From Pengzhenrongella sicca (lineage in GTDB: Bacteria > Actinomycetota > Actinomycetes > Actinomycetales > Cellulomonadaceae), in the NCBI RefSeq assembly GCF_017569225.1, contig NZ_CP071868.1:1736001-1800000 (forward strand): a stretch of DNA of 64,000 bases, written 5' to 3'. Shown piece after piece: positions 14,225 to 63,612 of the stretch. The position numbers were made by a program, and so were the translations under genes. Numbering within the stretch: the stretch's first letter is position 1; each line of letters starts with the position of its first letter. The notes beneath the pieces are model-generated. The model saw only the letters and a list, made by a program, of their open reading frames with translations. It was not told the origin of the DNA and searched no databases.

Positions 14225-14268
14225 CCGGGTGGTGGCGGGCCGGCCGGAACCGGCCCGCCACCACCCGG
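14225..14268. terminator. Strong 19-bp perfect hairpin
   Basis: Two 19-base arms (14225-14243 and 14250-14268) are perfectly complementary, with a 6-base loop CCGGAA. It lies between the end of the metalloprotease gene and the start of the small gene. It is a good candidate for a factor-independent or pausing terminator in a GC-rich genome, though no T-run follows. Confidence 0.75.
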
Positions 14269-14306
14269 ACTCCTGTGTCGTGCGTCGGCTGCGGCTGCGG
14301 CTGCGG

Positions 14307-16697
14307 CTACGAGCGCGCCGCGGCCGACATCTCGCCCTGCTGCGGCTGCTTCATCGCCGGGAACGCGGGCCGGGGCGGCCCGCTCTCGATCGCCGCCGCG
14401 GGCTGGCCCTGACGCAGGTCGCTGACGACGCCGCCGAGCGACTCGTACCCGGAGACCGACGGGCCCCAGGCGTTGCCGTCCCACCACTTGTGGAACAGCG
14501 CACTGTCGGTGCCGGTCACGAACACGTCAAGCCGGTTCGGGCCCCACGCGGTGACCCGCGGCGCCGAGGTGATGACGCCGCCGAGGGACTCCCAGCCGGT
14601 GACCGACGGGCCCCAGGCGTTGCCGTCCCACCACTTGTGCCACAGCGCGCTGTCCGTGCCGGTGACGAACACGTCGAGGCGGTTCGGGCCCCACGCGACC
14701 ACGGTGGGCGCCGAGGTGCAGACGCCGCCCATGTACTCCCAGTCGGTCACCGACGGGCCCCAGGCGTTGCCGTCCCACCACTTGTGGTAGAGCGCGCTGT
14801 CGGTCCCGATCACGAAGACGTCGAGCCGGTTCGGGCCCCACGCCACGACCGTGGGCGGGCTCGCGCAGACGCCGCCCAGGTACTCATAGTCGGTGACCGA
14901 CGGGCCCCACGCACTGCCGTCCCACCACTTGTGGTAGAGCGCGTTGTCGGTGCCCAGGACGAACAGGTCGAGCCGGTTCTCGCCCCAGGCCACGACCTCG
15001 GGCGGGCTCATGCAGGTCCCGCCGAGGTACTCGTAGTCGGTGACGCCCGGTCCCCAGGCGTTGCCGTCCCACCACTTGTGGTAGATGGCGCGGTCGGTGC
15101 CGAGCACGAACGCGTCGAGCCGGTTCGGCCCCCAGGACGCCACGCGCGGCGGGCTCATGCAGATGCCGCCCATGTACTCCCAGTCGGTGACCGACGGGCC
15201 CCAGGCGTTGCCGTCCCACCACTTGTGCCACAGCGCGCGGTCGGTGCCGAGGACGAACGCGTCGAGCCGGTTCGGCCCCCAGGCCGCGACCTCGGGTGCA
15301 CTCATGCACACACCTCCCATGTACTCGTAGTCGGTGACGCCCGGTCCCCAGGCGTTGCCGTCCCACCATTTGTGGTACATCGCCGTGTCCGTGCCGAGCA
15401 CGAACGCGTCGATCCGGTTGGCGGCCCAGGACACGACGGGCCCGGCCGGGACCGGCGTCTGCTGCGCCGAGATGAGCGGGCTGCGCGTGCTGTCGAGGCA
15501 CGCCTCCATGCGCGCGGCCTGGCCGTGCGTGAACATCACCATGACCGGGTCGTCGACGTAGTCCATGTAGTTGACGAACAGGTCGCCGTTGGGCGCGTTG
15601 GTGCAGGACACGTGCGGGAAGGTCGGCACGCCGGTGTTCGCGCCGCCCTGGTTCGGGGTGTCCGCGACCTCGTCGGAGCCGCTGCAGCCGCTGCCGTCGT
15701 CGCCCCAGATGTGGAACAGGTTGAGGTAGTGGCCGATCTCGTGCGTCGCCGTCCGGCCGAGGTGGAACGGGGGAGCGGCGGTGCCGGTGGTGCCGAAGCC
15801 GGAGTGCGTGATCACGACGCCGTCGGTCGCGGCCGCGCCCCCCGGGAACTGCGCGTAGCCGAGCAGGCCGCCGCCGAGCGGGGCGACCCACATGTTGAGG
15901 TATCGGTCGGCCGGCCAGGCGTCGGCGCCGCCCGTGGCGGCGGACTTCACCGCGTCGTCGTGCGTGAACGACGTCGTCGCCGTGTTGGTCCGCGTGATCC
16001 CGGTCGTGGGTGCGCCGTTCGGGTCCACCGACGCCAGGAAGAACTCGACCCGCGAGTCCGCGACGAGCGGCTGGAACGGAGCCGGCACCGTCGAGACGTC
16101 CGGGTTGGTCGCGCGGAAGTCGCGGTTGAGCACGTCGATCTGGCTCTGGATCTGCTCGACCGAGACGTTCTGCTCCGGGGAGTTCCACACGACGTGCACG
16201 ACGACCGGGATCCGGGCGATGCCCGGGAACCGCTGCGACGCGTCGCGGGCGAGGAACATCCGCGTCCGGTTCTCGATGGCGGTGCGGTTCGCGACGTACT
16301 CGGGCGAGGTGGACAGCAGGCGCCGGTGCACCTCCATCGCCCCGCATCGGCGTTCGGTGGGTGTCGCCGCGCCCGCCCCGCCAGCCGTCGCGCCGCCCGC
16401 GCCGCCCGACCCGCCCGCGCCGGCCGCGGATCCTGCGCCGGCCGCGCCGGCCGCGCCCATCCGAGGTCCCGTGGACTCCTGTGCCGCGGGCGCGCCGTCG
16501 GCGGCTGCCGACATGGCGTTGCGGGACATCGACCGCGGCGCGGAACCCTTCATCGCCGAGCTGTCGGCGGCGCCCGAGCGCATCGCCGAGCCCGGCATCG
16601 CGCCGCCGGTGGCCGGGTGCATCGCGTCGCCGCTGCGTGCGGCGCCCGGCGACTCCGCCTTCTTCTTGTCTGCTCCCCCGTTGGACTGCTTGGTCAT
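14307..16697 (-). CDS. M43 (pappalysin-like) metalloprotease with seven lectin-like repeats
   Basis: A 796-residue protein. The first 120 residues are low-complexity (Ala, Gly, Met, Ser) with no classical signal peptide. The catalytic domain has the zincin motif [11 protein letters not shown] and a Met-turn NYMDY, typical of M43 cytophagalysin/pappalysin peptidases. From about residue 420 there are seven 49-residue units of the form WGPNRLDxFVxGTD...[11 protein letters not shown], a DUF346/PLL-like beta-propeller that binds sugars in known relatives. ATG 16697 has AAGGGG at good spacing; ATG 16703 is too close to that site. Confidence 0.87.
14406..15442. repeat. Seven 147-bp coding repeats (lectin-like units)
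   Basis: The DNA for the seven 49-residue units is highly similar between copies, especially the segment encoding [11 protein letters not shown]. The last two units diverge at GWESLGGV and GYESLGGV. The high identity suggests recent expansion and makes the locus prone to copy-number change. Confidence 0.85.
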
Positions 16698-29788: not shown

Positions 29789-30937
29789 GTGCGCGATGCT
29801 CGTCTGGTGACAGAACCGAGTGTTCACCCCCTGCCTCGCGGTCTCGTTCAAGCTTTGCAGCTGATATATGGAGATGCCGAGCCTGACTTTCGATGGGAGA
29901 CCCTCCAACGCTGGGACGAGGGCGGGCCAGATCCGCTCGACGAAGTCCTTGTGTTCGCCCGGCATGAGCCGGTGCCGCATTGGCACTACGTCGGCGTCGG
30001 CCTGACCGCGACGTCTGGCCCAAATCCGCCACTCGCGACCAGACATGGCACCTCCGAGGAAGATGACGTCGATGACGGCCGTGGGTGGAGTTTCGAGCTG
30101 ACGGCTCGCCTGTCTCGTGCGGACCACGAGGACGAGCCACCAACCTTCATGGCGAACGTCCTGCAGAATCTCGCCCGCTACGTAGCCGAGACAGGCAACG
30201 CGTTTGGGCCTGGGCACACCATGGATCTACACGGGCCCATTCAGTCGACATCGACGACACCGGTGGGGCACGTGCTGTGCGTCGAGGACCCGGAACTGGG
30301 ATTTGCGCAGCGCTCCGAAACGGGCGCCTTGGACGAGGGGGTCGACTTCCTGCAGATCGTCGGGCTGACCGCGGACGAGGCCGCCGCGAAGAAGAGTTGG
30401 ACCGCCGAAGGCTTCAGCGACCTCTTCGTGCAGTACTACCCGCTACTCACTACCCACCTCAGCCGAACCTCGATCTTCGCCGCTCCGGACGCAGTCGCCG
30501 CGCTCGAGACAGGGCGCACGCGCGACGGATCCTCCACGGCAGGACTAGCCCTCGACGTGCTGACGGTGCGGGACACCACCGCAGTGTTGGATCGGCTGCG
30601 GCGCCGCCGGCGGGCGGTGACTATCACGATCGGCGCCCACATGGTCAACACGTTCTGCCTGCTGCTTCCGCTACGCATCGGCGCCGGATGCTCGTTCTAC
30701 CTCGAGGGCCCGGAAACCCGGGCCACCTTCGTCCCCGAATCCGACGTCAAAGTACATGAGCACGAGCCAGCGGACTGGGTGATCGGACTTTCACCCGATC
30801 AGGCGCGGGCATTGTCGGACAAGCTCCTCCCTCAGGCGGGGACATACCGCGTGGGCGAGTTGCCTGATCTGCTCTTCGAGGTCCGCGCGACCGTGGTACG
30901 CGACGTCGCGGGCGGAGTCATCGAGACCATCGGCTGA
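29789..30937 (+). CDS. Suppressor-of-fused (SUFU) domain protein
   Basis: A 382-residue protein from GTG 29789 (GTG 29807 is also possible). It has the bacterial SUFU pattern: HYVGVGL, NLARYVAETG, GPGHTMDLHGP, DPELGF and VDFLQIVGLTADE. Bacterial SUFU proteins are common immunity proteins against polymorphic toxins, but no toxin gene is adjacent. The gene forms a single cassette between array sites 2 and 3. Confidence 0.8.
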   Translation: MRDARLVTEPSVHPLPRGLVQALQLIYGDAEPDFRWETLQRWDEGGPDPLDEVLVFARHEPVPHWHYVGVGLTATSGPNPPLATRHGTSEEDDVDDGRGWSFELTARLSRADHEDEPPTFMANVLQNLARYVAETGNAFGPGHTMDLHGPIQSTSTTPVGHVLCVEDPELGFAQRSETGALDEGVDFLQIVGLTADEAAAKKSWTAEGFSDLFVQYYPLLTTHLSRTSIFAAPDAVAALETGRTRDGSSTAGLALDVLTVRDTTAVLDRLRRRRRAVTITIGAHMVNTFCLLLPLRIGAGCSFYLEGPETRATFVPESDVKVHEHEPADWVIGLSPDQARALSDKLLPQAGTYRVGELPDLLFEVRATVVRDVAGGVIETIG

Positions 30938-36687: not shown

Positions 36688-36735
36688 CGTAGACGCGGTC
36701 ACGATCGCCGCTTGACGACAGGTAGGTCGTCTACG
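36688..36735 (+). repeat. Array site 9
   Basis: Core TTGACGACAGGTAGGT at 36712-36727. Outer arms CGTAGACG (36688-36695) and CGTCTACG (36728-36735) are a perfect 8-bp pair; GTCA/TGAC pair inside. One of the clearest palindromes. Confidence 0.9.
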
Positions 36736-36827
36736 ACTAGCGTCGGAAGATCCGCGCCGAAAGTACCGGCGGCCCGTCACGCGATTTCGAGGTCCGTCCA
36801 CCCTTTGTCGACAGGTTGCGCAGTTGG

Positions 36828-37403
36828 TCACGGCACGGCGTCGATGAGATCCCAGATGGACGGATTGTCTTGAGCTGCGATGTACGCGGTCGCTGCAGCG
36901 GTGGCGCCAGCCTCACTCGAGTAACCAGCTCGTTCGTGGTCGCCGGCTGCCTTTAGCGCCGGCCGGCTGGCCTGCCACACCGGAGCTCTCATGGACATCA
37001 CTCGAAACACGATGATCGCGTGTCGTCCGGTCGCATCGACTCGACTCTGAGCGTTCTGAAGCTCTTCGACGATCCTGACGGGAACGTCGTTGCCCGTGAA
37101 TTCTGCCGCGACGGGTGCTGCGATGTCGACCTTGACCGATTCCGGCAGGGCGGTATCCGTACGGACCAGGACGTGCGTCCCGTCGTTCATCTCGAACGCG
37201 ACCTCCCCGGGGGCGATCCCAGTCGCCTGCTCCGCCGTGAGGACATCGCCGACGGCGAGAGCCGGAAAGCTCGGTGACACCGCTGTGGCGAGCGGAGCGT
37301 TCGACGGGCTGGAGCTCGGGGCACGGTCCGGGGCCGAACACCCACCCAGCATCCCCATGGTCAGCAACACCGGGAGCGCAGCGGCAAGATATCGAATATT
37401 CAT
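36828..37403 (-). CDS. Lipoprotein, hypothetical
   Basis: A 191-residue predicted lipoprotein with lipobox LGGC after a hydrophobic signal. A Ser/Pro linker is followed by a soluble domain of unknown family. Single gene between array sites 9 and 10. Confidence 0.75.
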   Translation of the reverse strand: MNIRYLAAALPVLLTMGMLGGCSAPDRAPSSSPSNAPLATAVSPSFPALAVGDVLTAEQATGIAPGEVAFEMNDGTHVLVRTDTALPESVKVDIAAPVAAEFTGNDVPVRIVEELQNAQSRVDATGRHAIIVFRVMSMRAPVWQASRPALKAAGDHERAGYSSEAGATAAATAYIAAQDNPSIWDLIDAVP

Positions 37404-37582
37404 GGCCCCAATATCGACCCTGATCAGCCTCATCGTCTGGGACTAGGCCATGACGGCCCGTCCCGTCAACGCGCGCCGTCGATCGATTGAGCCCGTCCCG
37501 GTCTCGTCCAGGACGGCGCCCGCCGGGGAAGCCGAGCCGTCAGCTTTGCGCGGTCCACCCACTCAACCCCTGGGCGCTCAAA
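37404..37582. other. 179-bp region, no gene
   Basis: Promoter-side sequence of the lipoprotein gene up to array site 10. No supported coding frame. Confidence 0.4.
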
Positions 37583-37664
37583 CGGGTACGAGTCGTGAGT
37601 GCGGTCATGGCCAGTTCTCGACCGCGTTGTCCGCGCCTGGGCGGGGGTGAACGACCGTTACCCG
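37583..37664 (+). repeat. Array site 10
   Basis: Core TGAACGACCGTTACCC at 37648-37663. The left arm CGGGTACGAGTCGTGA (37583-37598) is complementary to the right arm over nearly its whole length with two small bulges. This is the longest near-continuous pairing in the set and shows extrahelical bases like those of attC hairpins. Confidence 0.9.
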
Positions 37665-39435: not shown

Positions 39436-39525
39436 CGACCAAGTTGTCGGCGACGCCTGAAGACTGATCAGGGATCGACGGCTGAAATCTGACCACCTGC
39501 CGCGATCCTGTGGAGGGTGATCGGT

Positions 39526-40743
39526 ATGGAGGACTGGGCAGAGGCCCGTCGGCTGCGTCGCGTCGAGGGCATGGCGATCTCGGCGATTGCGCGCCGGCTC
39601 GGGATCGCGCGGAACACGGTCAAGAAGGCGCTGGCCTGTGATCGGCCGCCGAAGTACGAGCGGCCAGCTCGCGGCTCGGTGGTCGATGCGGTCGAGGCGC
39701 AGGTTCGTGAGTTGCTGGTCTCGTGCCCGACGATGCCGGCCACGGTGATCGCGGAGCGAATCGGGTGGGAGCACTCGTTGACGGTCCTGAAGGACCGGGT
39801 GCGGGTGCTGCGCCCGTACTACCTGCCGCCGGACCCAGCCACCCGCACCCAATACGACCCGGGCGCCCGAGTGCAGTGCGATCTGTGGTTCCCCCCAGTC
39901 GAGGTCCCGCTCGGTGCCGGGCAGGTGGGTTCACCGCCGGTGCTGGTGATGGTCTCGGGGTACTCGCGGATGATCTTCGCGATCATGCTGCCCTCGAGGC
40001 AGGGTCCGGACCTGATCGCCGGGCACTGGGCCTTGTTGACTTCGATGGGCGCGGTCTCGCGCGAGCTGGTCTGGGACAACGAGGGGGCGGTCGGGTCCTG
40101 GCGGGCCGGCAAACCCAAGCTCACCGACGACTTCGAAGCGTTCCGCGGGATCCTCGGAATCGGGATCCACCAGTGCCGCCCACGCGACCCGGAGTCCAAG
40201 GGGTTGGTCGAACGCGCGAACGGCTACCTGGAGACCTCGTTCCTGCCCGGGCGCACCTTCACCGGCCCCGGCGACTTCAACACCCAGCTGGTCGACTGGC
40301 TGAAACTGGCCAACGCCCGCCAGCACCGGGCACTGGGCTGCCGCCCGAACCAGCGGTGGGAGGCCGACCGGGCGGCGATGCTCACCCTGCCGCCGGTGGC
40401 CCCCCAGCTCGGCTGGCGCACCCGAGTGCGGCTCCCGCGCGACCACTACGTGCGCCTGGGCTCCAACGACTACTCCGTCGACCCGTCCGCAGTGGGCCGG
40501 TTCGTCGAGGTCATCGCCGACCTCGAGCAGGTCACCGTCCATCTAGGCGCCAAGGTCGTCGCGACCCACCCGCGTTGCTGGGCGCGCTGGCAGACCATCA
40601 CCGACCCCGCCCACCGGGCCGCGGCATTGGCAATGTCCACCACAGCGGCCGACCGCCCAGCCCCCAGCCAGCCAGCCGACGACGTCGAGCAGCGTGACCT
40701 GGGCACCTACGACGCCGCGTTCGGTCTGACGGACGTGGCCTGA
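39526..40743 (+). CDS. istA: IS21 transposase IstA
   Basis: A 405-residue transposase. The N-terminal helix-turn-helix (MAISAIARRLGIARNTVKKA) is followed by a DDE integrase core with candidate acids in QCDLWF, VWDNEGAVG and SKGLVERANGYLE. ATG 39526 has GGAGGG at good spacing. Its stop overlaps the istB start (TGATG). Confidence 0.95.
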   Translation: MEDWAEARRLRRVEGMAISAIARRLGIARNTVKKALACDRPPKYERPARGSVVDAVEAQVRELLVSCPTMPATVIAERIGWEHSLTVLKDRVRVLRPYYLPPDPATRTQYDPGARVQCDLWFPPVEVPLGAGQVGSPPVLVMVSGYSRMIFAIMLPSRQGPDLIAGHWALLTSMGAVSRELVWDNEGAVGSWRAGKPKLTDDFEAFRGILGIGIHQCRPRDPESKGLVERANGYLETSFLPGRTFTGPGDFNTQLVDWLKLANARQHRALGCRPNQRWEADRAAMLTLPPVAPQLGWRTRVRLPRDHYVRLGSNDYSVDPSAVGRFVEVIADLEQVTVHLGAKVVATHPRCWARWQTITDPAHRAAALAMSTTAADRPAPSQPADDVEQRDLGTYDAAFGLTDVA

Positions 40744-41534
40744 TGGGCGCCGCGACCAAGACCAGCACCCGGGACGTGTCCGCCGAGCTCGCGTTCTTGA
40801 CCCGGGCGCTGAAAGCCCCGACCCTGCGTGAGGCCGTCGACCGGCTCGCCGAACGCGCCCGGACCGAGTCCTGGACCCACGAGGAGTTCCTCGCCGCCTG
40901 CCTGCAGCGTGAGGTCTCCGCCCGCGAAGCCCACGGCGGTGAGGGCCGCATCCGCGCCGCCCGGTTCCCGGGCCGCAAGTCGTTGGAGGACTTCGACTAC
41001 GACCACGCCCGGGGCCTGCCCCGCGACCAGATCGCCCACCTGGGCACCTTGGACTTCGTGGCCGCCCGCGAGAACGTCGTCTTCCTCGGCCCGCCCGGCA
41101 CGGGCAAGACCCACCTCGCGACCGGGATCGCGGTCCGCGCCTGCCAGGCCGGGCACCGAGTCCTGTTCGCGACCGCATCGGAGTGGGTCGACCGCCTCGC
41201 GACCGCGCACCACGACGGGCGCCTGCAAGACGAGCTACGACGCCTGGGCCGCTACCCGCTGCTCGTCATCGACGAGGTCGGCTACATCCCGTTCGAACCC
41301 GAAGCGGCGAACCTATTCTTCCAACTCGTCTCGGCGCGCTACGAACGCGCCTCACTGATCGTCACGAGCAACAAACCGTTCGGCCGGTGGGGAGAAGTCT
41401 TCGGCGACGACACCGTCGCCGCCGCGATGATCGACCGCCTCGTTCACCACGCCGACGTCATCGCCCTCAAAGGCGACTCCTACCGGCTCAAGAACCGCGA
41501 CCTCGGCCGCCCACCCGCGGCCAGCACCGACTGA
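40743..41534 (+). CDS. istB: IS21 helper ATPase IstB
   Basis: A 263-residue AAA+ ATPase that assists IstA in target selection. Walker A is GPPGTGKTH and Walker B LLVIDEVGY; the conserved LVTSNKPFGRW-like segment is present. Intact. Confidence 0.95.
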   Translation: MGAATKTSTRDVSAELAFLTRALKAPTLREAVDRLAERARTESWTHEEFLAACLQREVSAREAHGGEGRIRAARFPGRKSLEDFDYDHARGLPRDQIAHLGTLDFVAARENVVFLGPPGTGKTHLATGIAVRACQAGHRVLFATASEWVDRLATAHHDGRLQDELRRLGRYPLLVIDEVGYIPFEPEAANLFFQLVSARYERASLIVTSNKPFGRWGEVFGDDTVAAAMIDRLVHHADVIALKGDSYRLKNRDLGRPPAASTD

Positions 41535-49067: not shown

Positions 49068-49155
49068 CAAGTATCTCGGAGGCCGTCTGATTCAGCGGAC
49101 GTAACCGGCCGACTCTCGAACCATCGCCGACACGCCGCTGAACGACAGCTAGTTG
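49068..49155 (+). repeat. Array site 16
   Basis: Core TGAACGACAGCTAGTT at 49139-49154. TTCAGCGG (49091-49098) is a perfect 8-bp complement of CCGCTGAA (49135-49142); the outer CAAGTA/TAGTTG pair has one mismatch. Confidence 0.85.
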
Positions 49156-55173: not shown

Positions 55174-55289
55174 CGCAACTGGCTGCGACCCGGCTACTGG
55201 TGTCCGCGCTTGCCTACGTGCGGTGGTTCGAGGTGCTGACCGCCACTTTGGCTGCCGACGCCCCAGAGATTGGCGACAGCTAGGTTGCG
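55174..55289 (+). repeat. Array site 19
   Basis: Core TTGGCGACAGCTAGGT at 55270-55285. CGCAAC (55174-55179), directly after the regulator's stop codon, pairs perfectly with GTTGCG (55284-55289); GGCTG-CG pairs with CG-CAGCT next to it. Longest copy together with site 2 (116 bp). Confidence 0.88.
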
Positions 55290-55563
55290 GTCTGGTCTGT
55301 CGAGGCAGCAGCGCTGGCGCTGCGGTATGCGAGCCATGCTTTCGGAACTTGAGCGGACGAGGGGGTTCACCGTGTGGGAATGGACTCTCCAGGTGCTCGG
55401 TGTTCTGATCGGGGGATCGGCGGGCGCGTACCTCTACGGACGGGTCCGCCGACGTAAGGCGGCTGCGGCCTTCACAGCAGGGCGTGATGCGATCGGGTCT
55501 GCTGCACGAATAGGTGACACCTGACCTGTGGTGCCGGAGGGCACCGCTGGAAGGATGTGCACC

Positions 55564-55851
55564 GTGCCCAGACCCCACCCCAAGGAGTTCCGCGACGACG
55601 TCGTGGCCGTGGCCCGCCGCGGTGATGCTCCGATCAAAGAGATCGCGAAAGACTTCGGAATCAGCGAGTCGTGCCTGCGCAACTGGATGCAGGCCGCCGA
55701 CGTCCAGGACGGCAACCGTCCCGGCGTAACGGTCAGCGAGTCGGCCGAACTGCGCGAGATGCGTCGCCGCAACCGGCTCCTCGAGCAGGAGAACGAGATC
55801 GTGCGTCGCGCGGCGGCGTACTTCGCCCAGGCGCACCTGCCGGGAAAATGA
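55564..55851 (+). CDS. IS3 OrfA
   Basis: A 95-residue helix-turn-helix protein (IKEIAKDFGISESCLRNWM) with C-terminal leucine zipper (LREMRRRNRLLEQENEIV). Its stop overlaps the orfB ATG in GGGAAAATGA, where an A-run could support programmed frameshifting. Confidence 0.88.
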   Translation: MPRPHPKEFRDDVVAVARRGDAPIKEIAKDFGISESCLRNWMQAADVQDGNRPGVTVSESAELREMRRRNRLLEQENEIVRRAAAYFAQAHLPGK

Positions 55852-56719
55852 TGTACCCGCTCGTGAGTGAGCTCGCTAGCGACGGGATCCCCGTCGCGGT
55901 GACGTGCCGGGTACTCAAGCTCGCCAGACAGCCCTACTACCGCTGGCTCGCCGCGCCGATCACAGCTCGTGAACTGGACGAGGCGTACCTGGCGAACGTG
56001 CTGTTCGATGCCCACGTCGACGATCCCGAGTTCGGGCACCGGCTGCTGGCCGACGAAGCCGACAAGGCCGGCCTGCGCGCCAGTGACCGGCGGGTCTGGC
56101 GGATCTGCCGGGACAACCAGTGGTGGTCGGTGTTCGGCAAGAAGCGCGCCAAGAACGGCAAGAAGGCCGGCCCGCCAGCCCACGACGACCGCGTGCTGCG
56201 GATCTTCCGCGCCGACGCACCCAACCGGTTGTGGCTCTGGGACATCACCGAGCACCCCACCGCCGAGGGCAAGCTCTACCTGTGTGCGATCAAGGACGTG
56301 TACTCCAACCGGATCGTGGGGTACTCGATCAGCGACCGCATGACCTCCACGGCGGTGAACGCCCTGGCCAGCGCCGTGCAGCGCGTCGTGACGTGGCCGG
56401 CTGCATCGTCCACTCGGACCGGGGCAGCCAATTTCGAAGCCGAAAGGTGCTGCGCGAGCTGGACCGACACACCCTGGTCGGATCGATGGGGCAAGTCGCC
56501 TCGGCCGGGGACAACGCGGCGATGGAGAGCTTCTTCTCGTTGCTGCAGAAGAACGTCCTGGACCGGCGCCGCTGGGCCAACCGCGACGAGCTCCGCCTGG
56601 CGATCATCACGTGGATCGAACGGACCTACCACCGCCGCCGACGCCAGGCCCGCCTGGGTCGACTGACCCCCATCGAGTACGAGACCATCAACACCCCTCA
56701 GGTCGCACTCGCCGCCTGA
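55848..56719 (+). pseudogene. IS3 OrfB transposase with frameshift
   Basis: The rve-type DDE domain begins in one frame (WLWDITEHP, IVGYSISDRM) and changes frame at about 56385-56400, continuing as GCIVHSDRGSQFRSRKV and the C-terminal acidic region AMESFFSLLQKNVL. One base is missing relative to an intact gene. Confidence 0.85.
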
Positions 56720-57034
56720 GACCGACTGTCACCTATTCGTGCAGCAGACCCATCTTCCCTGGATGGGTAGTGGGTAGCCGGTCGTACTGCAGAGCCCCCG
56801 GTGGACTGCTTGTCATAACGCAGAACGACATCTATCACGTCGTCGATCGCGGGATGCCCATCACTCGCCACGACTTACCCACCGATCGACTTGAAATTGT
56901 TGCGGTCCGACGAGGCACGCGGGCCGACCACAAGCACATGCCAGCCGGCTGGCAAGTCATGGAGTGCTTGGACGACTACGAGAAGGTCTGGATCGCGTGC
57001 CACGAGAGCGAGATGCGCTTCGTGGAACAGGCAT

Positions 57035-57122
57035 TCGCGCGTTCGTCACAGCCGCCTCGATCGACATTGCCCTAACCACAGACTCGTGAACCGAACGACG
57101 CTTGACGACAGGAAGAGCGCGA
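57035..57122 (+). repeat. Array site 20
   Basis: Core TTGACGACAGGAAGAG at 57102-57117. TCGCGC (57035-57040) and GCGCGA (57117-57122) are perfect outer arms, though the left one lies inside the end of the preceding gene. Confidence 0.7.
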
Positions 57123-60915: not shown

Positions 60916-61243
60916 GCCCAACGCTGGGCGTCCTGTGAATCGCCTGTAAGTGTTCGTGGTGGCTGGCCTGGGGCTGGCTGGCAGGGTTGGTGTCGTCGCT
61001 CGGCGGCGGGTGTGACCCCTGAATCGCCTGACCCCCTTGGGGTGTCATGCCCGGGATCTGTCCGCTCGGCGCTGGGTGCCGACGCCGACCCTGGCCCACC
61101 ACGATGGCTTGATCAGAAGCATGTCCGTTGCGGAGATGCCGTCCCCACAACGTGGCTCATTACAGGCCTGCCTCGTAGTGACTTCTCGCCCCGGGCCGAC
61201 GCCGGCAACGACGTCCGTCCCAACGAGTGAGGAGAACATCGTC
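60916..61243. other. 328-bp region upstream of the IS110 transposase
   Basis: Probably holds the left end of the IS110-family element; GAATCGCCTG occurs twice (60937 and 61020). IS110 elements lack clear terminal repeats, so the boundary cannot be fixed. Confidence 0.4.
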
Positions 61244-62329
61244 GTGTCCAGTTTGCAGGCCATCGTGGCTGGCATCTACCAGTTCGTCGTCGGGGTAGAT
61301 ACCCACGCCGCTACCCACACCTTCGCTGTCGTCGCCGCCCCGAACGGTGCCCTGGTGGATCAGGTCACCTTCCCGACCTCGCCGGCAGGGTTGCGTCGCG
61401 CGCTGGCGTGGATCGCGCGGCGCACCGGCGGTGACCTCGACGCCGTGCTGGTCGCCGCAGAGGGCACCGGCTCCTACGGTGCTGTCCTGAGTGATGTGCT
61501 CGGCCAAGCGGGCTACCGAGTTGTGGAGGCACCGACACCCAAGCGTGAGCGGGGCCGGGGCAAGACCGACGCCCTGGACGCGGTACTCGCGGCCCGCGCG
61601 ACGATGGCGACGCCCGTGACGATGCTGCGTGATCGTCGCGCGGGCCAGGTCCAGGCCGCGTTGGCGGTGCTGACCGTGGCGCGTGACCAGCTCAACGCCG
61701 ACCGGCTGCGGTGCATCAACGCGCTCACCGCGATCGTGCGCAGCCACGACCTCGGTCTCGACGCACGGCGCGCCCTGACCGCACCCCAGGTCGCTGCGAT
61801 CGCCGGCTGGCGGCGGCGCGACGAGGGCCTCGGCCAGGCGACGGCGCGGGTTGAGGCCGTCCGCCTCGCCAAGCGGATCGTCGACCTCACCGCCGAGCTC
61901 GGCCACAACCGCGACCAGGTCACCGAGATCGTCGTCCAGCAGGCACCCGAACTGCTCGACCTGCCTGGCGTCGGCCCGGTCACCGCCGCCGTGATCCTGA
62001 CGGTCTGGTCCCACCCCGGCCGGGTCCGGACCGAGGCCGCATTCGCTCAGATCGCGGGCACCTGCCCGATCCCGGCATCCTCCGGCAACACGGTCCGCCA
62101 TCGACTCAACCGCGGCGGCGACCGTCGACTCAACCGGGCGTTCAACACCATCGTGCTCACCCGCATGCGCATCGACCCTGACACCCGCGCCTACATCGAC
62201 CGGCGCCGGGCCGAGGGCAAGACGACCAAGGAGATCCGCCGATGCCTCAAGCGCTACACCACCCGGCAGATCTACCGCACCCTGGCCGTCGCGCACCCAA
62301 CTCCCGAGATGATCACCTCAGCGGCTTGA
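61244..62329 (+). CDS. IS110-family transposase
   Basis: A 361-residue DEDD transposase. The N-terminal catalytic part has VGVDTHAATHTFAVV (first Asp), EGTGSYG and GKTDALDA acids; the C-terminal transposase_20 part has LLDLPGVGPVTAAVIL and FAQIAGTCPIPASSG. GTG 61244 has GAGGAG upstream. These elements use a bridge RNA in related families; the flanks were not resolved. Confidence 0.92.
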   Translation: MSSLQAIVAGIYQFVVGVDTHAATHTFAVVAAPNGALVDQVTFPTSPAGLRRALAWIARRTGGDLDAVLVAAEGTGSYGAVLSDVLGQAGYRVVEAPTPKRERGRGKTDALDAVLAARATMATPVTMLRDRRAGQVQAALAVLTVARDQLNADRLRCINALTAIVRSHDLGLDARRALTAPQVAAIAGWRRRDEGLGQATARVEAVRLAKRIVDLTAELGHNRDQVTEIVVQQAPELLDLPGVGPVTAAVILTVWSHPGRVRTEAAFAQIAGTCPIPASSGNTVRHRLNRGGDRRLNRAFNTIVLTRMRIDPDTRAYIDRRRAEGKTTKEIRRCLKRYTTRQIYRTLAVAHPTPEMITSAA

Positions 62330-62368
62330 CGCGACATAGAAGCATCCTGGGTCTGATGGAGGCTCGGG

Positions 62369-63268
62369 CTATGGGATTTCGACCAGGATCTGGTCGCTCC
62401 CGTGGGTAGCGTAGAACGCGGTCTCGAACTCCGTCGGCGGGATGTCGCCGAGGTAGCCGTGTAGGCGTTGGGTGTTGTGCCAGTGGACCCAGCCCAGGGT
62501 GGCCAGCTCGACGTCCTCGACGCTCTTCCAAGGTCCGGTGCGGGCCGGCCCGCGGATCAGCTCGGCCTTGTAGTAGCCGTTGACGGTCTCTGCCAGGGCG
62601 TTGTCATACGAATCGGCGACGGTCCCGATCGAGGGGACCGCGCCGATCTCGGCGAGGCGCTCGCCGTACCGGATGGACGTGAATTGAGCTCCGGCATCGG
62701 AGTGACAGGTCAGCCCCTCCAGGCGCGTCCCGCGGGACCAGCGGGCCATCTCGATCGCGTCCAGCACCATCTCGGTGCGCATGTGGGATGCGGCCCGCCA
62801 GCCCACGATCATCCGGGAGTAGACGTCGACGATGAAGCACACGTAGGCGACCCCGGCCCAGGTCGGCACGTAGGTCAGGTCTGTGACCCACAACCGGTTC
62901 GGCGCGAGCGCGGTGAAGTCCCGGCGGACCAGGTCCGGGTGACGCGCCGCGACCGGGTCCGCCCGCGTGGTGCGGACCCGCTTGGAGCGCCGGACGCCTT
63001 CGATGCCCTCGCCGCGCATCAGCCGGGTGACCTGGTCACGGCCCACGTCCCAGCCGGCCCGACGTGCGGCCTTCCACAGCTTGCGGGCCCCGTAGACGCA
63101 GTAGTTGTCCTCCCACAGCTGGCGCACCACCGGGCGCAGGACCGTGTCGCGGGCGGCACGGGCCGACGGCGGGCGGGTCTTGGCCGCGTAGTACGTGCTC
63201 GGGGCCACCTGCAGCGCGGTGCAAATGGGCTCGACCCCGAGCTCTCGGTTGGCGTCGATGAACGCCAC
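62369..63268 (-). CDS. IS3 OrfB transposase
   Basis: A 299-residue rve-type transposase with DDE residues in LWVTDLTYVP, CHSDAGAQFTSIRY and DNALAETVNGYYK. The GTG start overlaps the orfA stop (TAGTG), so it is made either by reinitiation or by frameshifting from orfA. Confidence 0.93.
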   Translation of the reverse strand: MAFIDANRELGVEPICTALQVAPSTYYAAKTRPPSARAARDTVLRPVVRQLWEDNYCVYGARKLWKAARRAGWDVGRDQVTRLMRGEGIEGVRRSKRVRTTRADPVAARHPDLVRRDFTALAPNRLWVTDLTYVPTWAGVAYVCFIVDVYSRMIVGWRAASHMRTEMVLDAIEMARWSRGTRLEGLTCHSDAGAQFTSIRYGERLAEIGAVPSIGTVADSYDNALAETVNGYYKAELIRGPARTGPWKSVEDVELATLGWVHWHNTQRLHGYLGDIPPTEFETAFYATHGSDQILVEIP

Positions 63269-63612
63269 TACTTCCTGTGTTGGCGGTCGAGCTCCGCCCC
63301 GAAGAAACTCGCAGCCATCTTCAGGATCTCGTTGGCCCGGCGCAGCTCACGGTTCTCCTGCTCGAGCTCACGCATCCGAGCTGACTCGCTCGTGCTCACC
63401 CCCGGCGCATGGCCGTCGTCGATCTCGGCCTGACGCACCCACAGGCGCACCGACTCGGTCCCATACCCCAGCTGGGTCGCGACCCGCTGAACGGTGCCGT
63501 GCTCGGTACCCAGCTCGACCCGTAGGGCACGAACCATCCTGACCGCTGCGGCCTTCTCCTGATCGGAGTACCGACGCGTCGTCGGCCTCCCCTTCGATAG
63601 ATCTCTCGGCAT
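63268..63612 (-). CDS. IS3 OrfA
   Basis: A 114-residue DNA-binding protein with helix-turn-helix (RVATQLGYGTESVRLWVRQ) and a C-terminal coiled coil (MRELEQENRELRRANEIL). ATG 63612 begins MPRDLSKG. Confidence 0.92.
   Translation of the reverse strand: MPRDLSKGRPTTRRYSDQEKAAAVRMVRALRVELGTEHGTVQRVATQLGYGTESVRLWVRQAEIDDGHAPGVSTSESARMRELEQENRELRRANEILKMAASFFGAELDRQHRK

Follow-up and report, generated by a model that had tools for sequence, protein, structure and literature searches.

An IS3-family element inside a cassette gene of Pengzhenrongella sicca, with an uninterrupted copy of the cassette in a second array of the same genome

The window, by which we mean the whole analysed stretch of 64,000 nucleotides, occupies positions 1736001-1800000 of a genome that consists of one contig of 4,395,128 bases (G+C 70%). 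It contains a small gene cut in two by an IS3-family insertion sequence, and the gene in turn lies in a unit bounded by two short direct repeats, here called array sites (Table 1). A first-pass annotation had given 55327-57075 for this arrangement; that interval covers the split gene together with the element, the element proper is the shorter interval listed in the table. Both halves of the gene are open and in the same frame, with 53 codons upstream (55336-55494) and 107 codons downstream (56752-57072, the shared ATC counted). Rejoined over a single ATC they encode 162, 159 or 147 amino acids, depending on whether translation starts at ATG 55327, ATG 55336 or GTG 55372, thus the previous estimate of about 165 residues was slightly high. 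The codon corresponding to ATG 55327 is ACG in the intact copy described below. GTG 55372 seems the likelier start codon, because it is directly preceded by GAGGGGG and the intact copy has ATG at the same codon. With the element present, the 5' frame stops at 55524, inside the element, which gives 62 residues from ATG 55336. The stop codon of the gene (57073-57075) is 29 nt ahead of the array site at 57104, in agreement with the earlier statement that the gene ends just before a site. The numbering of that site as site 20 was not reproduced; counting strong sites from 28640 we arrive at number 16, or at number 17 with the weak site at 37650 included.

Table 1. Features of the interrupted cassette and of a second cassette shared between the arrays (positions in the window)
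Feature	Positions	Strand	Basis or counterpart
Whole cassette, one site-to-site unit	55273..57115	+	503/589 columns identical (element left out) to G000:C1 ~2047784-2048369, minus strand
Array site at the 5' end of the cassette, with its CGACAG core at 55274	55264..55289	+	
Interrupted gene, 5' half (apparent membrane segment, basic linker)	55336..55494	+	membrane segment judged by eye
ATC target duplication, left copy	55492..55494		
IS3-family insertion sequence, 1257 bp	55495..56751	+	25/25 inverted ends, sibling copies, NF033516 best NCBIfam match, HTH_Tnp_1 and rve over Pfam cut-off
Left inverted end of the element	55495..55519	+	
OrfA, 95 aa, GTG start, HTH_Tnp_1	55564..55851	+	
OrfB, ATGA overlap with OrfA, frameshifted near 56348-56383	55848..56666	+	
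Right inverted end of the element	56727..56751	-	
ATC target duplication, right copy; single ATC in the intact cassette	56752..56754		
Interrupted gene, 3' half and stop	56755..57075	+	
Array site at the 3' end of the cassette, with its CGACAG core at 57106	57096..57121	+	
Second shared cassette, sites at both ends	36716..37660	+	L012 13727-12743; 98.4% identity (917 columns) and, in a further piece of 35 columns, 97%

The perfect 25-bp ends and the flanking ATC target duplication reported from the first inspection were both found again: the two termini are complementary at 25 of 25 bases, and ATC stands directly outside each of them. OrfA and OrfB correspond to an IS3-type transposase, with an HTH_Tnp_1 domain in the former (34.9 bits, Pfam cut-off 24.1) and an rve (DDE) domain in the latter (41.2 bits, cut-off 32.6). 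For both ORFs the top NCBIfam match was NF033516 (transpos_IS3), with scores of 42.7 and 120.7 bits; these are below the whole-protein cut-off of 160, which we put down to the protein being in two parts and frameshifted. The two ORFs, the inverted ends, the 3-bp target duplication and the presence in multiple copies are all features of the IS3 family, in which the target duplication is 3 bp or slightly longer and the outermost bases are usually TG...CA. The window element differs from this picture in that its OrfB is frameshifted and its outermost bases are GGGTC...GACCC. The ends read GGGTCTGCTG...CAGCAGACCC across the copies, with one change in the sibling L004, and a TG...CA frame begins 5 bp inside them.

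A search in which 40 of 325 first-look candidates were scored found at least seven near-full-length copies of the element in the genome. The siblings are 1259-1261 bp long, and the window element (1257 bp) lacks four bases. It differs from them at 8 to 28 of 1261 alignment columns, the nearest being L002 with eight. A 3-bp direct duplication is present at four of the seven copies and absent at three. OrfB of the window copy runs out of frame near 56383 and has 272 residues, versus 291 in the other six of the seven copies, and the end of its catalytic domain is missing; therefore this copy should not transpose unaided, and would be expected to move only where a sibling supplies the transposase. 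The defective OrfB also means that the window copy is not pristine, it either broke after arrival or arrived broken. OrfA and OrfB overlap as ATGA in the window copy; in the sibling L007 (G000:C1:2573580-2574838) the OrfA frame continues, via a 2-base difference, for 385 residues into OrfB. DNA related to the element was detected in 64 of 99 genomes, this one included (E <= 0.001, four candidates scored per genome), and full-length matches beyond the own genome had 70-84% identity.

Searching the genome with the 3' half of the gene led to a second locus on the minus strand (2047829-2048149), 85% identical and free of stop codons. It is part of an uninterrupted copy of the cassette, about 255 kb from the window copy, which has an open frame of 163 codons. 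At the junction this copy carries a single ATC and reads ...GRDAI/FPGWVV..., identical to the rejoined window gene. The proposal, made from the window sequence, that removal of the element and one ATC would join DAI to FPGWVV in frame is thus borne out. The two cassettes are 85% identical at the DNA level, with a dS of 0.28 and a dN/dS of 0.31 over 148 codons (stop counted). The dN/dS value is 0.255 for the 3' half and 0.49 (from GTG) or 0.665 (from ATG 55336) for the 5' half, which would fit purifying selection during most of the divergence, weaker in the 5' half.

Other homologues are rare: one was found in 98 other genomes in the search with the 3' half, and two in 395 others in a further search, of which we credit one. 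In a genome of another genus (G058) there is a 32% identical protein, collinear across the junction and with no gap there. A third candidate (G409, E 5.4e-4) was dropped, as it is antisense to a 647-residue open frame that we take to be an acetolactate synthase. In the named-genome collection, from which the own genome was possibly excluded, scanning with the 3' half confirmed no homologue. Comparison with homologues had been suggested as a check on the junction; the close relative has the identical junction, and the distant one is collinear across it. As homologues are rare, the evidence for the intact form of the gene comes from one close relative, in the same genome, and one distant relative.

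The product is apparently a small membrane-anchored protein of no known family; in this respect we keep the description of the first-pass annotation, the membrane segment having been judged by eye. A weak match in a Pfam scan had raised DUF2550 (PF10739) as a candidate family. DUF2550 is an actinobacterial family, which is over the cut-off in this genome and in 35 of 38 relatives, and the own genome has a separate member over the cut-off at 3402356; like the G+C content of 70%, this accords with an actinobacterium. We rejected the assignment: the intact copy scored 16.9 bits and the 3' half 16.0 bits against a cut-off of 27, and a profile comparison with three canonical members gave a probability of 16% (E 0.0016, single comparison). 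Modelling of the 3' half by itself gave a structure of seven strands with a helix at the C-terminus; at a mean pLDDT of 52 its resemblance to a PH-like domain is of low confidence, and we draw nothing firm from it.

The cassette belongs to a row of similar sites. A regular expression for the core had 22 matches, 13 in the window (all on the plus strand), eight at the second-array locus L012 (all minus) and one at L013 (minus). A weight matrix was built on 31 sites, with the weak sites at window 37650 and L012 7604 and the L013 match (11743, minus) excluded. It recognised 17 strong sites in the window, all plus, between 28640 and 63794, and five weaker ones, also plus; at L012 it found 13 strong sites, all minus, and three weaker ones, two minus and one plus. 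The second array spans G000:C1 ~2035600-2049100 on the minus strand, its orientation is opposite to that of the window array. It must be noted that, the sites being chosen by motif, their scores and the conservation of the core are inflated, the strand bias is not.

Outside the core the arms of the sites lean to CGCCGCTGAA and GTAAGTSGYG. The best dyad axis passes through the middle of CGACAG with 4.39 of 10 expected matches, followed by an axis with 3.71, the mean of the axes being 2.56 (sd 0.53). Single sites had given the first impression of attC-like hairpins. This interpretation was rejected, because there were no stems beyond what the consensus yields: among the 31 sites arm complementarity was 5.42 of 13 within sites versus 5.40 between sites, and the hairpin stem score was 4.48 versus 4.50 after permutation, with 170 of 300 permutations at or above the observed value. 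Among 30 of these sites (the L014 site left out) no attC-type partner of the 14-nt motif was found either downstream (8.27 vs. 8.26) or upstream (8.33 vs. 8.29). Judged by their sequence, the CGACAG sites appear to resemble a folded attC less than they do a recombinase site that is double-stranded and has an exchange region of 6 bp. A strict site pattern was found at seven places in the own genome and at none in 98 relatives. In the named-genome collection another strict pattern, which by eye fits two sites of the own genome, matched once, in an Acidimicrobiaceae MAG (L016); the match scores 23.0, like some array sites, has no second site within 8 kb, and is probably due to chance. As the patterns were strict, looser arrays elsewhere may have been missed.

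The homology between the two copies of the interrupted cassette starts at 55273 and ends at 57115, within array sites on both sides. When the window was compared with 32 kb at the second array (blastn, E 1e-5), the only other shared segment was the second cassette of Table 1. Because both segments start and end within sites, the mobile unit appears to extend from site to site. The second segment is far closer to its counterpart (98%) than the interrupted cassette is, so copying of units from one array to the other seems to have happened at different times. A minus-strand ORF in it (36828-37433) has no Pfam match.

The best match to the integron integrase profile (TIGR02249) in the own genome reached 75.2 bits, against a cut-off of 265; all 14 control genomes had matches, none of them over the cut-off. 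The genome has nine tyrosine recombinase (PF00589) matches, one of them with an internal stop and two of which we take, by score, for Xer, and two serine recombinase matches. Neither kind was found within the window or within the 32 kb at the second array. These negative results, together with the missing attC-type partner and a CGACAG near-invariance that is partly built in by picking sites on the motif, speaks for an explanation in which the repeats are no recombination sites and the cassettes were copied by homologous recombination or by some other route. We consider that unlikely, since only two stretches of homology link the window with the second array and all four of their ends fall within sites, the strong ones making up about 1-2% of the region, and since the seed matches keep to a single strand in each array (13 of 13 and eight of eight).

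Some further observations concern the contents and surroundings of the arrays. Four of the eight ORFs scanned in the second array had a Pfam match: NERD, SMI1_KNR4 (SUKH-1), and two bPH_10 matches below the cut-off, in ORFs that share 71% DNA identity with each other. A tRNA-Leu gene lies at the edge of this array (L012 19459-19533, minus), and its end with the flank (L012 19405-19533) recurs as a 91% direct repeat at L012 2029-2116, on the opposite side of the array (G000:C1 ~2032029-2049533). Because the tRNA gene and the direct repeat flank it, the second array may be part of a genomic island, some 17 kb long, inserted at tRNA-Leu. No tRNA gene was found in the window. An ORF with a SUFU domain lies among the sites of the window (29789-30937). 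The SUFU and SUKH-1 families have immunity-like roles, and these two genes hint that some cassettes carry immunity-like genes. The window array also contains an IS21-type transposase and IstB pair (39517-41534). At 61037-63313 there is an IS110-type transposase and the OrfB of a second, different IS3-family element (NF033516, 311 bits), with an ALIL frameshift pseudoknot at 63200-63313. Between 43623 and 55272, with one further site at 49141, the units measure 5.5 and 6.1 kb, which is large for cassettes; they hold ordinary-looking minus-strand genes (chemotaxis receptor, flotillin, histidine kinase, metallo-hydrolase). Long open frames at 14225-15437 contain internal direct repeats of about 79-84% identity.

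We regard it as very probable that the locus arose by insertion of an IS3-family element into a cassette gene that existed before and had already been copied. The element would have been copied out of a sibling into the coding sequence of the small membrane-anchored protein, in a cassette with an array site at either end, the two in direct orientation. The insertion would have duplicated three base pairs (ATC), ended the protein inside the element and severed the downstream domain, probably with loss of function. The cassette would have been a site-to-site unit before that, already copied between the two arrays of the genome, probably through site-specific recombination, and the copy in the second array, remaining intact, would display the empty site. 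The three element copies that lack a duplication count against this explanation, as do the defective OrfB of the window copy and the rarity of homologues.

Because the copies match from site to site and stop there, the insertion probably postdates both the cassette unit and the divergence of its copies. This supports the earlier view that it followed cassette assembly. The accompanying claim that it is recent holds in a relative sense: the element is eight columns in 1261 away from a sibling while the cassettes are 85% identical with a dS of 0.28, yet a frameshift is already present in its transposase. The word is best taken to mean long after the cassette had been copied, assuming that gene conversion among the element copies hid no older differences. 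Gene conversion between siblings could make the window element appear younger than its real age.

It is very unlikely that the split gene still yields working products, either a short membrane peptide from the 5' half or a protein from the 3' half started within the element; a frame of 154 aa from GTG 56611 in the element does extend across the 3' half as far as 57075, but it has no membrane segment and starts in element sequence. Likewise very unlikely is that the second cassette copy once bore the element and lost it by precise excision, the insertion being older than the duplication: such a loss would produce an equally clean junction with a single ATC, but IS3 elements move by copying and their precise loss is rare, the element is near-identical to L002 (8/1261 columns) while the cassettes differ at 15% of columns, and there is no clear sign of relaxed evolution in the two halves of the gene (dN/dS 0.255 for the 3' half, 0.49 for the 5' half from GTG).

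With insertion into an already copied cassette as the preferred explanation, the presence of a damaged and an undamaged copy in two arrays of one chromosome serves as a control both for the empty site and for the order of events (cassette, copying between arrays, insertion). The pair also pins the ends of the mobile unit to about 10 bases around CGACAG. The pinned ends support the view that the repeats are recombination sites, in a phylum, the Actinobacteria, in which integrons are reported to be extremely rare and no complete one is recorded in the relevant part of a large survey (PMC9024848).

A plausible reading of the arrays, to which we give somewhat less than an even chance, is a cassette system other than an integron: two arrays of opposite orientation (17 and 13 strong sites), direct double-stranded dif-like sites with CGACAG as the exchange core, units copied between the arrays, and a recombinase apparently encoded elsewhere. 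If this is true, the second array is a natural record of the cassette before it was damaged. As in integrons, the mobile unit runs from site to site between direct repeats, as seen in the two shared units only; an integrase and attC sites (paired R''/R' boxes or folding) were not detected in the searches described above. Compared with the integrons and CALIN elements of the survey, as far as the sections concerned describe them (PMC9024848), the window array is similar in its direct sites, the single strand used in each array, units that are often about 0.4-2 kb, and, as in CALIN, the lack of a nearby integrase, and it differs in having no R'/R'' partner, no within-site hairpin signal and no integrase match above the cut-off.

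This type of array was not found among the matches listed in the open-licence literature. The dif-module islands of Acinetobacter chromosomes come near to it: according to the part of the report that deals with them (PMC12907356), modules stand in rows separated by 28-bp sites, each with a 6-bp centre between two inverted arms, and some modules carry insertion sequences. The apparent likeness lies in bounding sites of similar shortness, about 26 bp in the window, and in a possible arrangement of inverted arms on either side of six central base pairs. The Acinetobacter sites alternate between C/D and D/C, whereas those of the window are direct repeats whose core and arms are unlike those of the printed Acinetobacter site, and with no linked recombinase (PMC12907356, same part).

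The closest counterpart of the insertion itself is in the chromosomal integron of V. cholerae, where, in the passages of the report concerned (PMC11023631), a 1261-bp IS3-family element with two overlapping ORFs lies inside a cassette coding sequence of a large array. There a target duplication was found at neither copy, as described in those passages, whereas the ATC duplication of the window element is intact; an integron integrase and attC sites accompany the V. cholerae array, and neither was detected for the window array (PMC11023631, same passages). Because IS3 elements within cassette genes are already known from that example, the event described here is an ordinary IS3 insertion, and it is the array around it that is less ordinary.
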